From a bacterium (GTDB lineage Bacteria; CG2-30-53-67; CG2-30-70-394), in the NCBI GenBank assembly GCA_024278555.1, contig JAJRSX010000036.1, positions 1 to 41,462 of the forward strand: a stretch of 41,462 bases of DNA, written 5' to 3'. A program made the position numbers and the translations under genes. Shown here one piece after another: positions 6,029-27,714 of this stretch (position 1 is its first letter; every line of letters starts with the position of its first letter). Below the pieces are notes generated by a model. It ran no database searches. It was not told the DNA's origin and saw only the letters and a list, made by a program, of their open reading frames with translations.

Positions 6029-6850
6029 ATGCGCATCGCGGTGGTCATCCCGACCCTCAACGAGGAGGGGCGGCTTCCGGCCTGCCTCGCCGCCCTCGCC
6101 CGCCAGCCCGGACCGATCGAGGTGGTGGTCGCCGACGGCGGCTCCACCGACCGGACCCGCGAGGTCGCGGCGCGTTTCCCGGGCGTGCGGGTGGTGGTGT
6201 CGGAGGCGGGGCGCGGCCGGCAGATGAACGCCGGCGCCCGCGCCACCACCGGTGCCTACCTCTGGTTCCTCCACGCCGACTGCCTGGCGGCCGCCGGGGC
6301 GGCCTCGATGGTCCGCCGCTGCCTCGCCGACGAGGCGACCACCCTCGGTGCCTTCCGCTTCGCCCTGGATAGCCGCCGGTGGCGCTACCGGATCGTCGAG
6401 GCGGGGGTCCGCCTGCGCTGCCGACTCTTTTCTCTGCCGTACGGTGATCAGGGGCTCTTCCTCCGCCGCGCCGCCTTCGAGGCCCTCGGCGGCTATCGCG
6501 AGGAGCCCCTCTTTGAGGACCTCCACCTGGTGCGCGCGGCGCGCGCCGCCGGCCGGGTCGTCTGTTTGCCGCACCCGCTACCCACCTCGGTGCGCCGCTG
6601 CCGCCGCGACGGCGTGGTGCGGACCACCGTGCGCAACCAGCTCCTCCTGCTCGGTGAGCGGCTCGGCGTGGCCCCGGCGGTGCTCGTGCGTCTACGTGAG
6701 CCCGGTATGCCCGCGGCAGAGATGTCGCCGGCGGTACACGGTGGCTACGGTGGCGACCTAGATGGTCAATCCACCACAGAGATGGGATATGGAAGGGCAC
6801 AGAGGACTGCATCGGAAGGACTCTCTCTCCCTAGCAGTGGCTCAGATTGA
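6029..6850 (+). CDS. Family 2 glycosyltransferase, arsenosugar type (TIGR04283)
   Basis: A GT-A fold glycosyltransferase of about 273 residues. It opens with RIAVVIPTLNEEGRL, has the nucleotide-binding VVVADGGSTDRT, and then the subfamily signature GRGRQMNAGA followed by LWFLHADC. FFDQG-like YGDQGLFLRR and the acceptor loop EEPLFEDLHLVRAAR are also present. Proteins of this type are called 'rSAM/selenodomain-associated transferase 2' or arsenosugar glycosyltransferases and travel with the DUF2064 partner found here at 9725. ATG 6029 is preferred over an in-frame ATG at 6008 because GAGG at 6017-6020 is well placed and homology begins at once. The last 30 or so residues look like translated repeat DNA (CACAGAG repeat at 6771-6814), so the original C-terminus was probably shorter. 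Confidence 0.92.
   Translation: MRIAVVIPTLNEEGRLPACLAALARQPGPIEVVVADGGSTDRTREVAARFPGVRVVVSEAGRGRQMNAGARATTGAYLWFLHADCLAAAGAASMVRRCLADEATTLGAFRFALDSRRWRYRIVEAGVRLRCRLFSLPYGDQGLFLRRAAFEALGGYREEPLFEDLHLVRAARAAGRVVCLPHPLPTSVRRCRRDGVVRTTVRNQLLLLGERLGVAPAVLVRLREPGMPAAEMSPAVHGGYGGDLDGQSTTEMGYGRAQRTASEGLSLPSSGSD
6771..6814. repeat. Half-copy of the CACAGAG dispersed repeat
   Basis: CCACCACAGAGATGGGATAT and the following GGGCACAGAGGACTGCAT match the inner arm of the 25807-28133 repeat element (25971-26004) in order and spacing. It overlaps the 3' end of the glycosyltransferase frame and has no inverted partner nearby. Confidence 0.6.
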
Positions 6851-6965
6851 TGACGGCGCCGTAGTGGTTGGAGATTCGCATACCTGTATTTGGAGACCCC
6901 ATCTTTTTGTTTTTCCACCGAAGACAACTTGTCATTGCTGGTTCGACAACCTTCAGGAGTCGTTG

Positions 6966-9416
6966 ATGAAGCTTGATGCCACCACCCCCCTCCACGCCCC
7001 CACCCTGCACGTGGAGCAGCGCGGCGATGCCTTTGTGGTCATCGACCCGGCAGGACCGAACTGGGCCGCCACCGACCGGCGCGGCGCGGAGCTCCTCACC
7101 TCCCTGAACGGCGGCACGCCGTTCGGGGCGTTGGTGGATCGGTACCGGACCGCCCACGACGTGGATCCGGTGAAGGCGTACCACCACGTCGCCACCCTGG
7201 TGGGCGACGGTCTCCGTCACGGCCTGCTGGCCACCGAGTCGGTGGCGGCGGAGATGTACGCCGGTCGCGCCGCCCACCTCGTCGATGCACCCCTGGAGGA
7301 GGTGTGGCTGCACACGAACAACTCCTGCAACCTCGCCTGTAGCCATTGCCTCGTCTCCTCCGGCCCGGATGGCGATTTCGGCCTGCCCACGGTCCAGTGG
7401 CTGTCGGTGATCGCCCAGGCGCGGGTCCTGGGGGCGCACCGCTTCTACCTCACCGGCGGCGAGCCCCTCATCCGCCCGGACGCGGTGGAGCTGGCGCAAG
7501 CGATCCTCGGCGACCCGGAGGCGGAGCTCGCCATCCTCACCAACGGCATCCCCCTGGTCGGCAAGCGCCTCGCCGCCCTCGCCTCCCTCGACACCGCCCG
7601 CCTCCGACTCCAGGTCTCCGTCGACGGCGCCACCGCCGCCACCAACGACATGGTGCGCGGCAAGGGCGCCTTCGACGCGGCGGTGGCGGGGATCCGCAAC
7701 GCGGTCGAGGCGGGGCTCGCGGTGACCCTCACCACCGTGGTGACCGCCGGTAACGCGGACGAGGTGGCGGCGGTTACCCGCCTCGCCGGTGAGCTTGGCG
7801 TGCGCCACCACCACCTCTTGTGGATGCACCGCCGCGGCCGCGCCCTGGTGGACGCCGCGCCGCCGGTGGCCAGGGTGATCGAGGTCGCCCGCGAGGCGGT
7901 GGCCGCGGGCCGTGAGAAGGGGGTGACGGTGGACAACCTGGAGGCGGTGAAGCAGCGCCTCAACTATCCGGCCGGTGTCCGGCGCGACCTCTCCAACGCC
8001 TGCGTCACCTCCCTGTGCGTCGCCTGGGACGGCCGCTGCTTCCCCTCCGCCTCTACCGCCGGCGAGGAGGCCCTCTGCCTCGGCTCGATCGCCGACACCC
8101 CGCTCGCCGAGCTGTGGCGCGACAGCGCGGTGGCCAAGCGGTTCCGCGGGGCCACGGTGGAGGACAAGCCCCAGTGTGTCGGCTGCCCCTTCAAGTACCT
8201 GTGCGGCGGCGGCGACGTGGAGCACAGCTACTTCTGGGGCGGCGACCTGCTCGCCGACGACCCGTACTGCGAGCTCCACCAGGCCCTCATCCGCGACGCC
8301 CTCTTCGACCGCGCGGCCGAGCGCAAGGTGCTGCACACCAACGGCCGCTCCGGCTTTGACGCGCCCCTGCTCTACACCGCCATGGGCGAGGGCTCCATCC
8401 ACTGCGCCACCGCCGAGGCGATCCCGGAGGTCGCCGTCTCCCACTCGGAGTGCGTCGTCTCCTTTGACCTCGACGCGCCGCGGGAGAGGGTGCGCGAGTT
8501 CTACGGCGAGGCAGCCGAGGCGCCCCAGGAGGATCTCTGCTGCCCGGTCCGGCCGGATCCCGCCGACATCGACCACATCCCGCGGGAGGTAATCGACCGC
8601 TTCTACGGCTGCGGCTCACCCATCGGCGCCGCCGCGGTGCAGCCGGGGGAGACGACCCTGGATCTCGGCTCGGGCGCCGGCATCGACGTCTTCACCGCCG
8701 CCAAGAAGGTGGGGGCTGAGGGCAGGGCGATCGGCGTCGACATGACCGACTCGATGCTCGCGGTGGCGCGCGAGTACCAGCCGCAGGTGGCGGCCAACCT
8801 CGGCTTCGACGTGGTCGACTTCCGCAAGGGGTACCTGGAGGAGATCCCGGTGGAGGCGCGCTCCGTGGACCTGGTCACCTCCAACTGCGTGATCAACCTG
8901 TCGCCGGACAAGAAGCGGGTCCTGGCGGAGATCTGGCGGGTCTTGAAGGACCACGGCCGGATGGTGATCTCCGACATCGTCGCCGAGGAGGCGGTGCCGC
9001 CGGAGCAGCGCCGGGACCCGCGCCTCTGGGGCGAGTGCATCTCCGGCGCCCTCACCGAAGATGAGCTCCTCGCGTTTTTGGAGCGGGCCGGCTTCTACGG
9101 CATCGAGTGTCTGTCGCGCAGCTTCTGGAAGGAGGTGGATGGGTACCGCTTCTTTTCGGTGACCGTGCGCGCCTACAAGTACGAGAAGCGCGAGGGGTGC
9201 GTCTTCATCGGCCAGTGGGCCACCTACGTGGGGCCGTACAAGGGGGTCTCCGACGAGGAGGGCCACTTCTTCCCCCGCGGCACGGCGGTGGAGGTGTGCA
9301 CCGACACCGCCGCCAAGCTTTGCCACCCCCCCTACGTCGGCCAGTTCGTCGTCACCGACCCCGACGGCGAGACCATCGGCACCCCATGCTGCGGGCCTGG
9401 GGGGAGCTGTTGCTGA
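6966..9416 (+). CDS. PqqD-like / radical SAM / SPASM / ArsM-like methyltransferase fusion
   Basis: An 816-residue multidomain enzyme. Residues 12-90 resemble a PqqD-type peptide-binding domain. The radical SAM core follows with C121/C125/C128 (CNLACSHC) binding the catalytic 4Fe-4S cluster and GGEP at 164-167 for AdoMet. Residues 346-435 hold the auxiliary-cluster cysteines of a SPASM-like region (C346, C351, C358, C371, C404, C407, C413, C435). Residues 500-737 are an arsenite-methyltransferase-like domain: DLCC at 523-526, FYGCGSP, LDLGSGAG, VDMT, and the two ArsM cysteines in SNCVINLSPDKK (C641) and ECISGAL (C691). A Cys-rich tail ends in CCGPGGSCC. The start at ATG 6966 has AGGAG at 6955-6959; upstream codons are not protein-like. 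Flanking TIGR04283 and TIGR04282 genes point to arsenosugar-type chemistry, with As(III) as the likely but unproven substrate. Confidence 0.9.
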   Translation: MKLDATTPLHAPTLHVEQRGDAFVVIDPAGPNWAATDRRGAELLTSLNGGTPFGALVDRYRTAHDVDPVKAYHHVATLVGDGLRHGLLATESVAAEMYAGRAAHLVDAPLEEVWLHTNNSCNLACSHCLVSSGPDGDFGLPTVQWLSVIAQARVLGAHRFYLTGGEPLIRPDAVELAQAILGDPEAELAILTNGIPLVGKRLAALASLDTARLRLQVSVDGATAATNDMVRGKGAFDAAVAGIRNAVEAGLAVTLTTVVTAGNADEVAAVTRLAGELGVRHHHLLWMHRRGRALVDAAPPVARVIEVAREAVAAGREKGVTVDNLEAVKQRLNYPAGVRRDLSNACVTSLCVAWDGRCFPSASTAGEEALCLGSIADTPLAELWRDSAVAKRFRGATVEDKPQCVGCPFKYLCGGGDVEHSYFWGGDLLADDPYCELHQALIRDALFDRAAERKVLHTNGRSGFDAPLLYTAMGEGSIHCATAEAIPEVAVSHSECVVSFDLDAPRERVREFYGEAAEAPQEDLCCPVRPDPADIDHIPREVIDRFYGCGSPIGAAAVQPGETTLDLGSGAGIDVFTAAKKVGAEGRAIGVDMTDSMLAVAREYQPQVAANLGFDVVDFRKGYLEEIPVEARSVDLVTSNCVINLSPDKKRVLAEIWRVLKDHGRMVISDIVAEEAVPPEQRRDPRLWGECISGALTEDELLAFLERAGFYGIECLSRSFWKEVDGYRFFSVTVRAYKYEKREGCVFIGQWATYVGPYKGVSDEEGHFFPRGTAVEVCTDTAAKLCHPPYVGQFVVTDPDGETIGTPCCGPGGSCC

Positions 9417-14637: not shown

Positions 14638-16236
14638 ATGGGAGGAGGTGTGCCACAGGAGTTTCACGACTCACACCACGGCCTCGGCTTTCTGGCCGCG
14701 GTCCTCGACAGCATCGACGACGCGATCGTCGTCATCGACCGGCAGTTCACCATCCGCTGGTCCAACCGCGCCTTCCGGCTGGAGACCGGGAGGGGCAGGG
14801 GGGAGGTGGTGGGGAGCCGGTGTCACGAGGTCTCCCACCACCTGGACAGACCGTGTGACGAGCATGGCTCCTCCGGTGCCGGGGGACACGCCGGCGACTG
14901 TCCCATCAAGGAGGTCTTCGCCACCGGTCTGTCGCAGGAGGTGATGCACACCCACTACGACGGCGACAACAAGCCGCGCTACGTGGAGATCAAGGCGTAC
15001 CCGGTGCGGGGCGGCAGCGGTGAGGTCGACTACGCCATCGAGGTGATCAAGGACGTGACCCAGCGGGTCCACCTGGAGGAGGAGCTGCGCCACGCCCAGA
15101 AGATGGAGGCGGTGGGCCTCCTGGTGGGCGGCGTGGCCCACGATTTCAACAACATGCTCACGGCCATCACCGGCTACGGGGAGCTGCTGCAGATCGACGT
15201 GGAGGAGGGGAGCACGGTCCACCTGGCGGTGGAGGAGATCCTCTCGGCGGCCGAGCGGGCCACCCGTCTGACCCGCAGCCTCCTCGCCTTCAGCCACAAG
15301 GTGCGGACCGAGGTCGGGGTCGTCAATCTGAACGAGATCCTTCGCTCCATCGACAAGCTCCTGCGTCGCATCCTGGGGGAGGACGTGGTGTTCGACGTCT
15401 CTCTGCAGGAGGGGGAGATCCCCATCCTCGCGGATCGCTACCAGATCGAGCAGGTGGTGATGAACCTCGCCGCCAATGCGCGCGATGCCATGGCCGCCGG
15501 CGACCGCTTCGCGGTGGCCACCGAGGTGGCAATGTTCACACGGGAGGAGGCGTACGTGTGCGGCCTCACCGACAGCGGGAGCTACGGCATCCTCTCGGTG
15601 AGCGACACGGGCACGGGGATCGATGAGGAGACCCGCGCGCGCATCTTCGAGCCCTTTTTCACCACCAAACCACGGGACAAGGGGACCGGTCTCGGCCTCT
15701 CCATGGTCTCCCGGATCGTCGCCAACCACGGCGGTCAGGTCTCGGTGGAGAGCCGCCAGGGGCTCGGGACGACCTTTCGTATCATCCTGCCCCTGTGGCA
15801 GGGAGATCCGGTGGAGCTGTCCCGGCCGGAGGTCGACGAGGAGGCCCTGCCCGTGGGGGCGGGCGAGACCATCCTGGTGGGCGAGGACGATGTCGCCGTG
15901 CGCCGGCTGCTGGTACAGATCCTGGAGGCGTACGGGTACCAGGTGGTGGTCGCCCGCAACGGTGCGGATGTGCTGGCAAATTGCCGTGAGCGGGGGGACG
16001 GGATCGACCTCTACATCCTCGACGTGGTGATGCCGGGCAAGGGGGGGGAGGCGATCCTTCGCGACATTCGCCTGATGCAGCCGGCGGCGCGGGTGCTCTT
16101 CGTCAGCGGCTACCCCGAGGAGGTCCTCTTCCAACGCGGTTTCCCGACCGCCGAGAACGCCTTGCTGGTAAAGCCCGTTTCGCGTGCCGTCCTGCTGCGC
16201 AAGGTGCGGGAGATGCTCGGTGCCCGTGTCGGGTAG
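14638..16236 (+). CDS. Hybrid histidine kinase, PAS-HisKA-HATPase-receiver
   Basis: A 532-residue soluble hybrid sensor kinase with no transmembrane segment. Residues 15-140 are a PAS domain with an unusual Cys/His cluster (C62, H66, C73, C88 within CHEV, RPCDE and DCPIKEV), a variant that recurs in deltaproteobacterial kinases. The dimerisation/phosphoacceptor box GGVAHDFNN has H168, and the ATPase domain has [26 protein letters not shown] and GTGLGLS. The C-terminal receiver (about 410-530) has GEDD, D462 in LDVVMPG and the Lys in LVKPVS. There is no output domain, so signal must pass to another phosphotransfer or regulator protein. ATG 14638 is the first start in frame. The next gene overlaps the stop by 17 bases, implying translational coupling within an operon driven from 14508. 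Confidence 0.93.
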
Positions 16237-17863
16237 CGGTGCGGAAGGCCTGCCCGGTGAGGGCGCCGTGGGGGCGGCGGAGCGCCCGCCGGCCCGGCGT
16301 GGCGGCGGGGCGTTCATCTCTCTCCTGGCCCTGGCCGGCCTCCTGCTGGTGCCGTGGCTCTACCGCTGCTTCGCTCCGCCCCGCTATCGATCCACGGTGC
16401 GCCTGCGGGTCGAGCCCCTCGGCCCGGAGCCGCGGGAGGCGGTCGCGGGGGAGGGCGATTTTCTCACCCAGTGTCAGCTCCTCACCACCCGGCAGTTTCT
16501 TCAACGGGTCGTCGATCGCCTCGGCTACTACGGAGAGGCGGAGCTGGCCGAGGAGGACCCTGTCGCCGAGCTGGCGCGGCGGCTCTCGGTCCGGCCGGTG
16601 CCCCGCACCCGTGTCGTGTTGGTGGCCGCCGAGGGGCGCGACCGCCTCTTCTGCGTGCGCCTCCTCGAAGAGCTGGTGAGGGCCTTTCCCGAGGCCATCC
16701 GTCTGGCGGAGCAACGACGGGCGGCGGGGCTGGAGGCGCGACTGGCCAGGGAGATTCATCTCCTGGAGGCGGCGGGGAGGTCGCCGGGTGGGGCGAGGGA
16801 AGCGGCAGCCGGCGCCTCGCCGACGGCGGGGGCGGGCAGATCGTTGCGGGAGTCGGCGCCGGCCGCCGTTCGCACCCTCCTGGAGGCGCGCCGGCGGGCG
16901 CGGGCGGAGGCCCTCCTGCGGGAGGTGGTCCCGGCGACCGAGGTTACCCTTCTCGATGGGCCGTCACCCGCGCGCGCCGTTCGTGCCGGCGTGTCGTGGG
17001 CGGGGATGGCCGCGGTGGCGGGGGGTGTCGCGGTGGCGGCGGCGCTCGTCGTGTTCTTCGCCGGCCGCCGCGGCGGCGCGGCCGGCGGCGGGGTCGGGCT
17101 GGAGGTCGCCGCCCTCGCCCGTGCCGTCGAGGGGCTGGCCCGGTCGACGCGCGCGCCGCCCCCGCCGGTGCGCGAGGGGGTCGCCCTGCCGGCCGTCCTC
17201 ACCGGCGATGAGATCGCCTCCCTCCTGGCGGCCACCGCCGGCCCCCTGGACCGCACCCTCTTCGAGCGCGCCCTGATGGGGGTGCCGACCCTCCTGGTCA
17301 ACAGCGCCGGGCCGCTCGATGTGGCCATCGGTGGACTGCTCAGCGGGTTGACGCCGGAGGAGGTGGTGGGGTTGCGCTGGTCCCAGGTCCACCTGGAGGA
17401 GGGGGTGGTCCACGTGGCCGGCTCACCGCCGCGCCTCGTCGACCTCAGCCCACCGGTCCTGCTCCTCTTCCGTCAGGCGCAGAAGGAGGGGCGCGACGGG
17501 GGCGAGTTGGTGGTGACCCAGGGCGGCGGCAGGGGGATCGGTGTCGCGGAGCTCGACGCCCTGCTGCTGTGCACCGCCCACGACGCGGGGCTCGACCGCC
17601 CCGAGCGGGTCACCGCCGGGGCGATCCGCCACACCTTCCTCGCCCACCTCGTGCGCCAGGGGTTGCGCCTCGCCGACCTGCCGCGTGTCGCCGGGCTCCT
17701 GGCCCCGGCGGTCCTCGCTTCGTATGGTCGCATGGCGCCGCCCGGCCCCGGTCTGGCGTTGGAGAGGGTCGACTTGACCCCACCGGGCTTTCAGCCCGTG
17801 AAGCCGCACGCCGGCGGACCGCCCTCCGGGGAGTGGACCGTGGGTGCGAGGTGGGAGGGGTAG
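16220..17863 (+). CDS. Wzz-like membrane protein fused to a degenerate tyrosine-recombinase domain
   Basis: A 547-residue protein. Residues 31-47 form TM1, followed by a Wzz/chain-length-determinant-like start (PPRYRSTVRLRV and FLTQCQLLTTRQFLQRVVDRL), a helical Ala/Arg-rich periplasmic stretch with probable coiled coil, then TM2 near 256-281. After a linker, residues 322-510 resemble a tyrosine recombinase catalytic domain: LLSGLTPEEVVGLRWSQVHL, then GAIRHTFLAHLVRQGLRLADL and VLASYGRM. The box II Arg (R470) and Tyr (Y502) remain, but the box I Arg is Thr378, the HxxR His is Gly467 and the LGH His is Leu, so DNA cleavage is unlikely. The start is GTG 16220 with GGAG at 16209-16212. The downstream kinase begins at the base after the stop. 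I know no named family with this layout; the domain calls come from motif reading alone. Confidence 0.75.
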   Translation: MPVSGSGAEGLPGEGAVGAAERPPARRGGGAFISLLALAGLLLVPWLYRCFAPPRYRSTVRLRVEPLGPEPREAVAGEGDFLTQCQLLTTRQFLQRVVDRLGYYGEAELAEEDPVAELARRLSVRPVPRTRVVLVAAEGRDRLFCVRLLEELVRAFPEAIRLAEQRRAAGLEARLAREIHLLEAAGRSPGGAREAAAGASPTAGAGRSLRESAPAAVRTLLEARRRARAEALLREVVPATEVTLLDGPSPARAVRAGVSWAGMAAVAGGVAVAAALVVFFAGRRGGAAGGGVGLEVAALARAVEGLARSTRAPPPPVREGVALPAVLTGDEIASLLAATAGPLDRTLFERALMGVPTLLVNSAGPLDVAIGGLLSGLTPEEVVGLRWSQVHLEEGVVHVAGSPPRLVDLSPPVLLLFRQAQKEGRDGGELVVTQGGGRGIGVAELDALLLCTAHDAGLDRPERVTAGAIRHTFLAHLVRQGLRLADLPRVAGLLAPAVLASYGRMAPPGPGLALERVDLTPPGFQPVKPHAGGPPSGEWTVGARWEG

Positions 17864-19801
<1,938 letters not shown>

Positions 19802-23847: not shown

Positions 23848-24822
23848 ATGAAACTGCCCATCGCTATTGCCCTCGCCGCCGCCGTGGGGCTCACGCCGGC
23901 CGCCGCGCGGGCGAACTACTACCACTATCACGAGATCGTCCTCGACAACGACTTCGTTGCCGGGACCCCCTCGGGCGGTTCGACCCACCAGTTTCAGTAC
24001 GCCGGCGAGGATGGCGGGCGGCTGATCCAGGCCGGCAACACCTACCAGGCGACCTTCTGGACGCCGACCGGTGGCCTGCCGCAGCCCACCGACTCCACTG
24101 ATCCGTTCCACTACGTGGCCGACCCGGGCGCGCCGACGAGCAATGCCCCGTATATCGCCAACCGGCAGGGTGATCTCTCCGCCGCCGGGCAGAGCGACTG
24201 GTGGATGCAGTGGAATCCGGAGGGCGCCACAGCCAAGGGCAACCTCAACTGGATCAAGCTCTATGTGTACGGTCAGAACATCGACCAGATGACGCTCCTC
24301 TCCGCCGACGGCCAATCGCTGTCCGGTGGAAAAACCACCACGAACAAGCCGTACGCCTCTACCGGCAAGGACTTCTACAACGGCCAGTGGCGGGACCCGT
24401 CGGATTCGAGCAAGGATCTGACCTGGTACGAGTTCAAGCTCTTCAAGGACCCGAGCCCTGACGGCTACCTCGCCGACTGGGACGACGCCGACTACGCCGA
24501 TCCCAACGCGGCTCCCGGCTACTTCTCTACCGATCGCACCGGTGGCGTGGGCTATGGTGGGGCCGGGTCCAACCTCCCCGGCGGGTATGACGCGGCGACC
24601 GGTAACGCCAACTACGACGAGTGGATCCACTTCGTGGCCGGGAACACCGGCAACTGGGACATCTACGCGGTCGCCCTGGAGGTGGACTACCTCGGCCTTG
24701 CCCCGACCAACCTGCCGAACAACCCGCCACCGAACAACGCGGTGCCTGAGCCCGCCACCCTCCTGCTCATGGGGATGGGGCTCGCGGGGGTGGTGCTGCT
24801 TCGCCGCCTGCGGCTCGCCTAA
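23848..24822 (+). CDS. PEP-CTERM sorting domain exported protein
   Basis: A 324-residue secreted protein with an N-terminal signal peptide (MKLPIAIALAAAVGLTPAAARA) and a C-terminal sorting signal: AVPEPATLLLMG, a hydrophobic helix (MGLAGVVLLRR) and a basic end (RRLRLA). Exosortase would cut at the PEP box and the protein is expected in the envelope or an exopolysaccharide matrix; no exosortase gene is in the window. The mature part is rich in Tyr, Asp, Asn and Gly with repeated NYYHYHE, DDADYADP and GYGGAGSNLPGG-like stretches and only aromatic, low-Cys content, as in beta-sandwich surface proteins. The ATG at 23848 has AAGGAG near 23834. A sigma-54 promoter precedes it and a strong terminator follows, so it is a single-gene unit. 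Function beyond sorting is unknown. Confidence 0.93.
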   Translation: MKLPIAIALAAAVGLTPAAARANYYHYHEIVLDNDFVAGTPSGGSTHQFQYAGEDGGRLIQAGNTYQATFWTPTGGLPQPTDSTDPFHYVADPGAPTSNAPYIANRQGDLSAAGQSDWWMQWNPEGATAKGNLNWIKLYVYGQNIDQMTLLSADGQSLSGGKTTTNKPYASTGKDFYNGQWRDPSDSSKDLTWYEFKLFKDPSPDGYLADWDDADYADPNAAPGYFSTDRTGGVGYGGAGSNLPGGYDAATGNANYDEWIHFVAGNTGNWDIYAVALEVDYLGLAPTNLPNNPPPNNAVPEPATLLLMGMGLAGVVLLRRLRLA

Positions 24823-26291: not shown

Positions 26292-27714
26292 ATGGTTTTG
26301 ACGCAAGGCGTGCTGTCTTTCAAGGTCGAGTTGGTTGCTGAGGAGAAGGAGTGGGTCACCGCCCGTGCCGCCTTACCGCTGGTGATCGAGGCAATGCGGA
26401 AGGTGATCCCGCGGACCACGTACCCACGGCTGGCGAAGGCACTGAGGTACGCCAGCGTGAGCCCGGTGCGGCGGGCGATCGAGAGTCTCGTGGCTCTGGT
26501 GGTGGCCGGCGGCGAGCATCTGAGTGATCTGGAGATCCTGCGCACCGAGACGGGGCTGACGGCGCTGCTGGGCTTTCGGATCATCAGCCCCAGTCAGGCG
26601 AAGAGCTTCCTCTACCGTTTCCACCAGAATGCAGAGGGGGGAGCGGCTGAGCGACCTGGAGGACGCCGCCTTGTCGCAGGCCGGCAAGGCGACGATTCGC
26701 CCGGAGGGGCCCGGGCTGAAGACGTTGGCCGAGCTGGTGAGCCAAGTGGTCACCGCCGTCCAACGGGTCACGCCGCAAACCCACGCCACGTTGGACGTGG
26801 ATGCCACGATCGTCGAGGCGCACAAGAAAAGGGCGTTGAAGGCGTACGAGGGGACGGTGGGGTATCAGCCGCAGATGGCCTACTGGGCCGAGACGCGGGT
26901 GTGGGTGGCCGACGAGTTTCGAGACGGCAATGTCCCGGCGGCCTACAAGGCCAAGGACCTCCTCCAGCGGGCGTTCGGGGCCCTGCCCGCGGGGGTGTCT
27001 ATGCGCTACCTGCGTGCGGACTCGGCCTTCTACGACGAGGCGGCGCTCACCCGGGCGGATGCGGCGGGGCTCCAGTTTGCCGTCTCCGCGGACATGAGCC
27101 CGGCGTTGTCGGCCGCCATCGCGGCGCTCCCGGAGACGGCGTGGCACCCCTACGCCGGTCGCGATGGCCGGTCCTCCGAGAGGGAGGAGCGCGAGTGGGC
27201 CGAGGTCGTCTTCGTCCCGAGCTGGGCGCGGAACTTCAAGAAGGAGGGCGTGGCCTTTCGCTACTTGGCCATTCGGGTCCGGCCGCGCCAGGGCGAGCTG
27301 TTTGATGCGGAGCCCTCGTGGCGCCACTTCGCGGTGGTGAGCAACCGGACCGGGGACGGGGAGACCCTCTTGCGGTGGCAGCGGGGCAAGCAGGGGACGG
27401 TGGAGCATGGCCATGGGGAGATGAAGAACGACCTGGGGGCGGGGGTGCTGCCGTGTGGTCGGTTTGGCGCCAACGCAGCGTGGTGGCGGCTCAACGTGGT
27501 GGCCTCCAACCTCTTGGCCTACCTGCAAGCGGGTGCGTTGCCGAAGGCGCTTGCCAAGGCACGCCCGAAGACCCTGCGGTTCTGCTTTTTCAACCTCGCC
27601 GGCCGGGTGATCCGTCACGCGCATGCCGTAGTGCTCAAGCTCTCGGCGGCCTTCCCCTATGCCCAGGACTACCTCCGCGCCCGCGCCTGGCTCGCCCGAG
27701 AAGCCGTGACCTAG
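26292..27714 (+). pseudogene. IS1380-family transposase, frameshifted
   Basis: The first part (ATG 26292, AGGAG at 26280-26284) encodes the N-terminal domain up to about 26637, including GLTALLGFRIISPSQAKSFLY. The catalytic part continues in another frame to 27714 with the DDE features LDVDATIVEAHKK, LRADSAFYD and HGHGEMKNDLGAG. The frames meet at a run of six G's (26636-26641); one G fewer would give a single frame of about 473 codons, the normal size for IS1380 transposases. A -1 slip would not join them, so classical programmed -1 frameshifting is excluded; a one-base insertion, transcriptional slippage or a sequencing error could each explain it. A downstream ATG at 26629 opens the second frame but lacks the N-terminal domain. 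Confidence 0.88.

Follow-up and report, generated by a model that had tools for sequence, protein, structure and literature searches.

The window analyzed here, a stretch of 41,462 nucleotides from a draft bacterial genome (3.06 Mb in 211 contigs), carries at positions 16220..17863 a gene for a 547-residue protein, P0001, which joins a polysaccharide co-polymerase (PCP) to a predicted pseudo-recombinase domain. Positions given below are those of the window, and the features named all lie on the + strand. The frame (16220-17860, followed by TAG) contains no internal stop codon, while its start is uncertain, with GTG codons at 16220 and 16226 and a further in-frame GTG upstream at 16184. Pfam assignments place the gene between two hybrid signaling kinases: a PAS - histidine kinase - receiver protein upstream (14638..16236) and a membrane PAS - histidine kinase - receiver protein downstream (17864..19801). 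Up to 17 nt at the start of the fusion gene are shared with the upstream kinase gene, and the ATG of the downstream kinase gene comes immediately after the TAG that closes the fusion frame. Based on this arrangement, the three genes are probably cotranscribed.

A homologue with the same architecture, P0002, was found in a metagenome-assembled genome that is the one known relative within the genus (G001, 'Nitrospirae bacterium CG2_30_70_394'), where a single intact open reading frame of 630 residues encodes it (contig C77:3770-5659). This second member bears directly on whether an error of sequencing or assembly created the fusion from two genes, a concern raised by the fragmented state of the window genome. 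The same junction, running from the PCP through the second helix and a short linker into the recombinase fold, recurs in this independent assembly within one frame and at about 40% identity, which refutes an artefact of this kind and reduces its probability to a negligible level. The neighbors of the P0002 gene are different (RND efflux genes and a cytochrome c), and a conserved signaling operon with the two flanking kinases was rejected on this basis. PCP genes usually lie within polysaccharide clusters, although this is not essential for the family. Inspection of both neighborhoods identified no polysaccharide (Wzx/Wzy) genes beside either copy.

The N-terminal half of P0001 is a polysaccharide co-polymerase of the Wzz/GumC type at the inner membrane, with an XrtA/GumC/Wzc-like periplasmic part. 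A first transmembrane helix at about residues 29-50 (16304..16369; about 28-50 by hydropathy, 30-50 in the model) and a second at residues 259-283 (16994..17068; about 258-283 by hydropathy, 260-283 in the model) enclose a periplasmic PCP domain of residues 51-258 (16370..16993), defined by the secondary structure of the model, Foldseek and homology to P0002. The half thus has the PCP feature of two membrane helices around a periplasmic alpha/beta domain with a long helix, and the order of elements in the predicted model (beta-alpha-alpha-beta-beta-long helix-beta) is the one expected for a PCP. The model of this half is of low confidence (pLDDT 57.9); its top PDB matches in Foldseek are all co-polymerases (KpsE, Wzc and WzzE). 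P0001 by itself matches the Wzz family (PF02706) below the Pfam cut-off (E 0.34), and its identity as a PCP follows from its homologue, as residues 15-415 of P0002 match the XrtA-system chain length determinant family TIGR03007 over 400 residues (E 4.4e-17). The score of this match, 61.5, is far under the equivalog cut-off of 278.85, and P0001 differs from TIGR03007 proteins in lying outside an XrtA cluster and in its added C-terminal domain. Some 20 relatives of P0002 were found among 386 genomes, and a profile of these relatives matched octameric Wzc (1e-46) and PslE (1e-38) in the PDB. The N-terminal halves of P0001 and P0002 share 36% identity over a 141-column BLAST alignment (E 7e-14), and about 208 periplasmic residues in P0001 compare with about 358 in P0002, so that P0001 is without most of the coiled coil. 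Hydropathy, the model and the TIGR03007 match therefore bear out the two helices and the PCP-type N-terminal half that a first-pass annotation of the sequence had proposed.

Beyond the second helix, a linker of about 36 residues (17069..17176, from direct reading and from low pLDDT at the start of the model) leads into a cytoplasmic domain of residues 320-525 (17177..17794). Profile matches of the C-terminal half of P0001 are sub-threshold, both to Pfam PF00589 (Phage_integrase, E 2.4e-4) and to NCBIfam XerA (E 2.3e-5), and a domain profile built from the two sequences P0001 and P0002 recovers ordinary integrases at E about 1e-8. These matches, and the recurrence of the fusion in G001, exceed what chance would produce. 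AlphaFold2 modeling of the domain from a 12-sequence input gave a pLDDT of 81.7 and a pTM of 0.78, with most of the core at 90 or above. When this model was compared with the PDB using Foldseek, XerA, XerD, lambda Int and Tn1549 Int were returned at probability 1.00. The predicted fold of the C-terminal half is thus that of a tyrosine recombinase, as the first-pass annotation had read it. No kinase profile in Pfam or NCBIfam matched P0001, and the fold of the domain differs from that of a Walker-type kinase. Only about 36-40 residues separate the second membrane helix from the catalytic fold in P0001 and P0002, leaving no room for a core-binding domain. According to the model, then, the C-terminal half is a tyrosine-recombinase catalytic fold without its core-binding domain. 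Relative to P0002, the domain of P0001 also contains an insert of about 22 residues (window 17190-17350) that is modeled with low confidence, and this inserted stretch weakly repeats the stretch that follows it (a local match of 31 bp).

The state of the active site was assessed by aligning both fusion proteins with 26 integrase domains. All 26 integrases carry Arg-I, the LGH His, Arg-II and Tyr, and 25 of them have the HxxR His (the other has Gln). In P0001 the Arg-I position is occupied by Thr378 (17351..17353; Thr in P0002 too), the HxxR His position by Gly467 (17618..17620; Ser in P0002) and the LGH His position by Leu493 (17696..17698; Pro in P0002). Arg470 at the Arg-II position (17627..17629) and Tyr502 at the nucleophile position (17723..17725) are kept in both proteins. 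The alignment therefore reproduces each of the substitutions and retentions first read from the sequence, and the catalytic degeneration that they imply is common to both known members. Three features go beyond that earlier reading: P0001 and P0002 lack the Lys of the beta2-beta3 hairpin, they have no core-binding domain and their recombinase-like domain is acidic. Both fusion proteins retain Glu, the KxR Arg, Arg-II and Tyr; of the full catalytic set (R, K, H, R, H/W, Y), only Arg-II and Tyr are left, along with the Glu.

The retained Arg-II, Glu and nucleophile Tyr, set in the correct fold, could be taken to indicate a working, if unusual, membrane-tethered site-specific recombinase. This is highly improbable, as Arg-I, Lys, His and the LGH His are gone in both members, the domain is acidic and has no core-binding domain, and the genome already holds two complete XerC/D-like genes. 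These same two genes led us to reject the domain as a stand-in for the cell's own XerC/D. The fusion protein therefore resembles XerA, XerC, XerD and phage integrases (PF00589) in its fold and in its Glu, Arg-II, KxR Arg and Tyr positions, but departs from them in lacking Arg-I, Lys, both His and the core-binding domain, in its acidity and in its tether to the membrane. From these losses we infer that the C-terminal domain no longer cuts DNA.

Whether a domain of this kind might still bind DNA is a separate matter. The C-terminal domains of P0001 and P0002 are acidic (pI 5.5 and 5.1, net charge -5 and -7) and contain 1 and 0 Lys, respectively, whereas all 26 compared integrase domains are basic (pI 8.2-11.2, net charge +1 to +18). 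The closest precedent for DNA binding is MrpR (YopR), the master repressor of the SPbeta prophage, which has a tyrosine-recombinase fold lacking the catalytic set and an active site, and whose retained Tyr matters for DNA binding (PMC10516654). Its structure (8bj6) is also among the fold matches of the C-terminal domain. By extension, P0001 could be a membrane-tethered regulator whose dead domain binds a DNA site and couples the state of the envelope or polysaccharide to transcription or to chromosome anchoring; the retention of Arg-II and Tyr in both members and the position of the gene between two signaling kinases would fit such a role. MrpR, however, is a soluble protein with a core-binding domain and an intact hairpin Lys (PMC10516654), while the fusion proteins have neither the hairpin Lys nor Arg-I, the absence of a core-binding domain leaves no DNA clamp, the domain is acidic with 0-1 Lys, and no conserved neighbor or site is known. 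We consider a DNA-binding regulator improbable. The domain probably no longer binds DNA, and because it is acidic and lacks the core-binding domain, protein binding is favored over DNA binding. The first-pass annotation had suggested reuse as a DNA- or protein-binding module; this is supported, and the charge and missing domain narrow it towards the second of these.

Comparison of the two members shows that constraint on the domain is strongest towards its C-terminus. BLAST aligned their C-terminal halves with E 6e-37, and identity across the domain rises from 29% (residues 355-439) to 69% (440-523), reaching 76% over the 58 residues 466-523. This best-conserved part of the domain comprises Arg-II, the Tyr helix and the tail, the latter being a conserved Pro-rich segment after the Tyr helix (MAPPGPGLALERVDLTPPG, residues 505-523; 17732..17788). 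Four-fold degenerate sites between the two genes are saturated (27/58 differ), and the residual similarity is therefore due to selection on the protein. The N-terminal half is far less constrained: its identity is about 36-40%, while ordinary PCP orthologues from the two genomes reach 81%, indicating that the fusion protein is fast-evolving except at its C-terminal end. In these ordinary orthologues (L083, G000:C38, and L087, G001:C136) the second membrane helix is followed by a further hydrophobic one, and there is no kinase.

Such divergence raises the possibility of a drifting chance fusion, in which the remnant of a recombinase became attached to a PCP copy and the resulting protein now does little or nothing. 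The fast divergence of the N-terminal half and of the first half of the C-terminal domain, the loss of the coiled coil in P0001, the lack of polysaccharide genes nearby and the very narrow distribution are all compatible with this. Against it, the frame is intact in both genomes despite the saturated synonymous sites, identity over the last 58 residues of the domain is 76%, the two members have lost and kept the same residues, and the gene is packed tightly between two coding genes. Drift therefore appears unlikely to us, while keeping a small but real share of the probability.

The reading towards which we lean, with somewhat better than even confidence, is that the C-terminal domain is a pseudo-enzyme scaffold at the position of the kinase in PCP-2a proteins, contacting neighboring subunits or a partner and setting the assembly or disassembly of the PCP ring without phosphorylation. 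Tyrosine recombinases hand a C-terminal segment to the next protomer of their ring. A ring-assembly or partner-docking scaffold is favored because the equivalent of this donated segment is the best-conserved part of the domain, while the DNA-facing charge and the catalytic residues are gone. In such a mechanism, the dead recombinase fold would take the place of the tyrosine kinase after the second helix, the conserved Tyr helix and C-terminal tail would touch neighboring subunits or a partner protein, and those contacts would set the assembly or disassembly of the ring with no need for phosphorylation. Donation of the tail between neighbors in the fusion protein is suggested by analogy only. 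Several observations count against the scaffold: no polysaccharide genes are adjacent, the neighborhood differs between the two genomes, only two members are known, the PCP half diverges fast (about 36-40% versus 81%) and most of the coiled coil is lost in P0001.

The proposed arrangement has parallels among known co-polymerases. Like the PCP-2a protein with a tyrosine kinase, Wzc (PDB 7nhr), P0001 has two membrane helices, a periplasmic PCP domain and a C-terminal cytoplasmic globular domain; unlike Wzc, this last domain has a tyrosine-recombinase fold rather than that of a Walker-type BY-kinase, and there is no Tyr-rich tail. In Wzc the tail reaches into the neighboring subunit and controls ring stability (PMC11986026). 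For the PCP-2 systems with a BY pseudokinase, EcpK/EpsV and HfsB/HfsA, the catalytically dead kinase has been proposed as a scaffold for the PCP (PMC12004946). By analogy, a dead enzyme fold probably serves as the cytoplasmic PCP scaffold here too, but the fold is unrelated, it is covalently fused in P0001 and its role there is one that we infer. In the current view, Wzc-type co-polymerases act through ring assembly and disassembly driven by phosphorylation, and the recent EcpK study suggests that some lineages can do without kinase activity. A naturally occurring PCP that carries an entirely unrelated dead-enzyme fold at this position could be used to ask whether self-association is all that is required of the cytoplasmic module. 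A more far-reaching proposal, which we regard as possible but tentative, is that the two proteins represent a new PCP subfamily in which the tyrosine kinase gave way to a dead tyrosine-recombinase fold as the cytoplasmic module for ring assembly, with the contacts that a recombinase makes between neighbors controlling the ring without phosphorylation.

The fusion is present in both genomes of the family (2/2) and in none of the six others of the phylum (8 phylum genomes in the collection). Profile searches of 386, 399 and 195 genomes from other groups (about 980, with the best few candidates per genome considered) revealed no further fusion and gave only ordinary integrases; two long-frame candidates from these groups, L111 and L113, proved on reading to be complete, soluble integrases. 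A collection-wide contig scan with weak patterns returned the known homologue P0002 alone, viral contigs searched with the full protein held no relatives, and plasmid and phage records gave integrase-like, ordinary matches alone, at 20-31% identity. Literature searches on Wzz or PCP combined with recombinase or integrase found no description of such a fusion. A PCP with a tyrosine-recombinase fold thus seems to be an undescribed architecture, and the initial statement that no described system has this combination stands as far as the literature was searched. It would also be the first example known to us in which the fold of a tyrosine recombinase has been relocated to the membrane and away from DNA.

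Other parts of the window contain features of separate interest. A PEP-CTERM protein (PF07589, Pfam) is encoded at 23848-24822 (+), with no polysaccharide cluster near it within the window, and its presence makes an exosortase system probable in this genome. At 26629-27714 (+) lies a DDE transposase gene that is possibly truncated at its N-terminus, as the PF13701 match begins only at profile position 113. Finally, a single open reading frame at 6762-9416 (+) encodes a radical SAM/SPASM protein together with a methyltransferase domain (Pfam), which suggests that two enzymes normally specified by separate genes have been fused.
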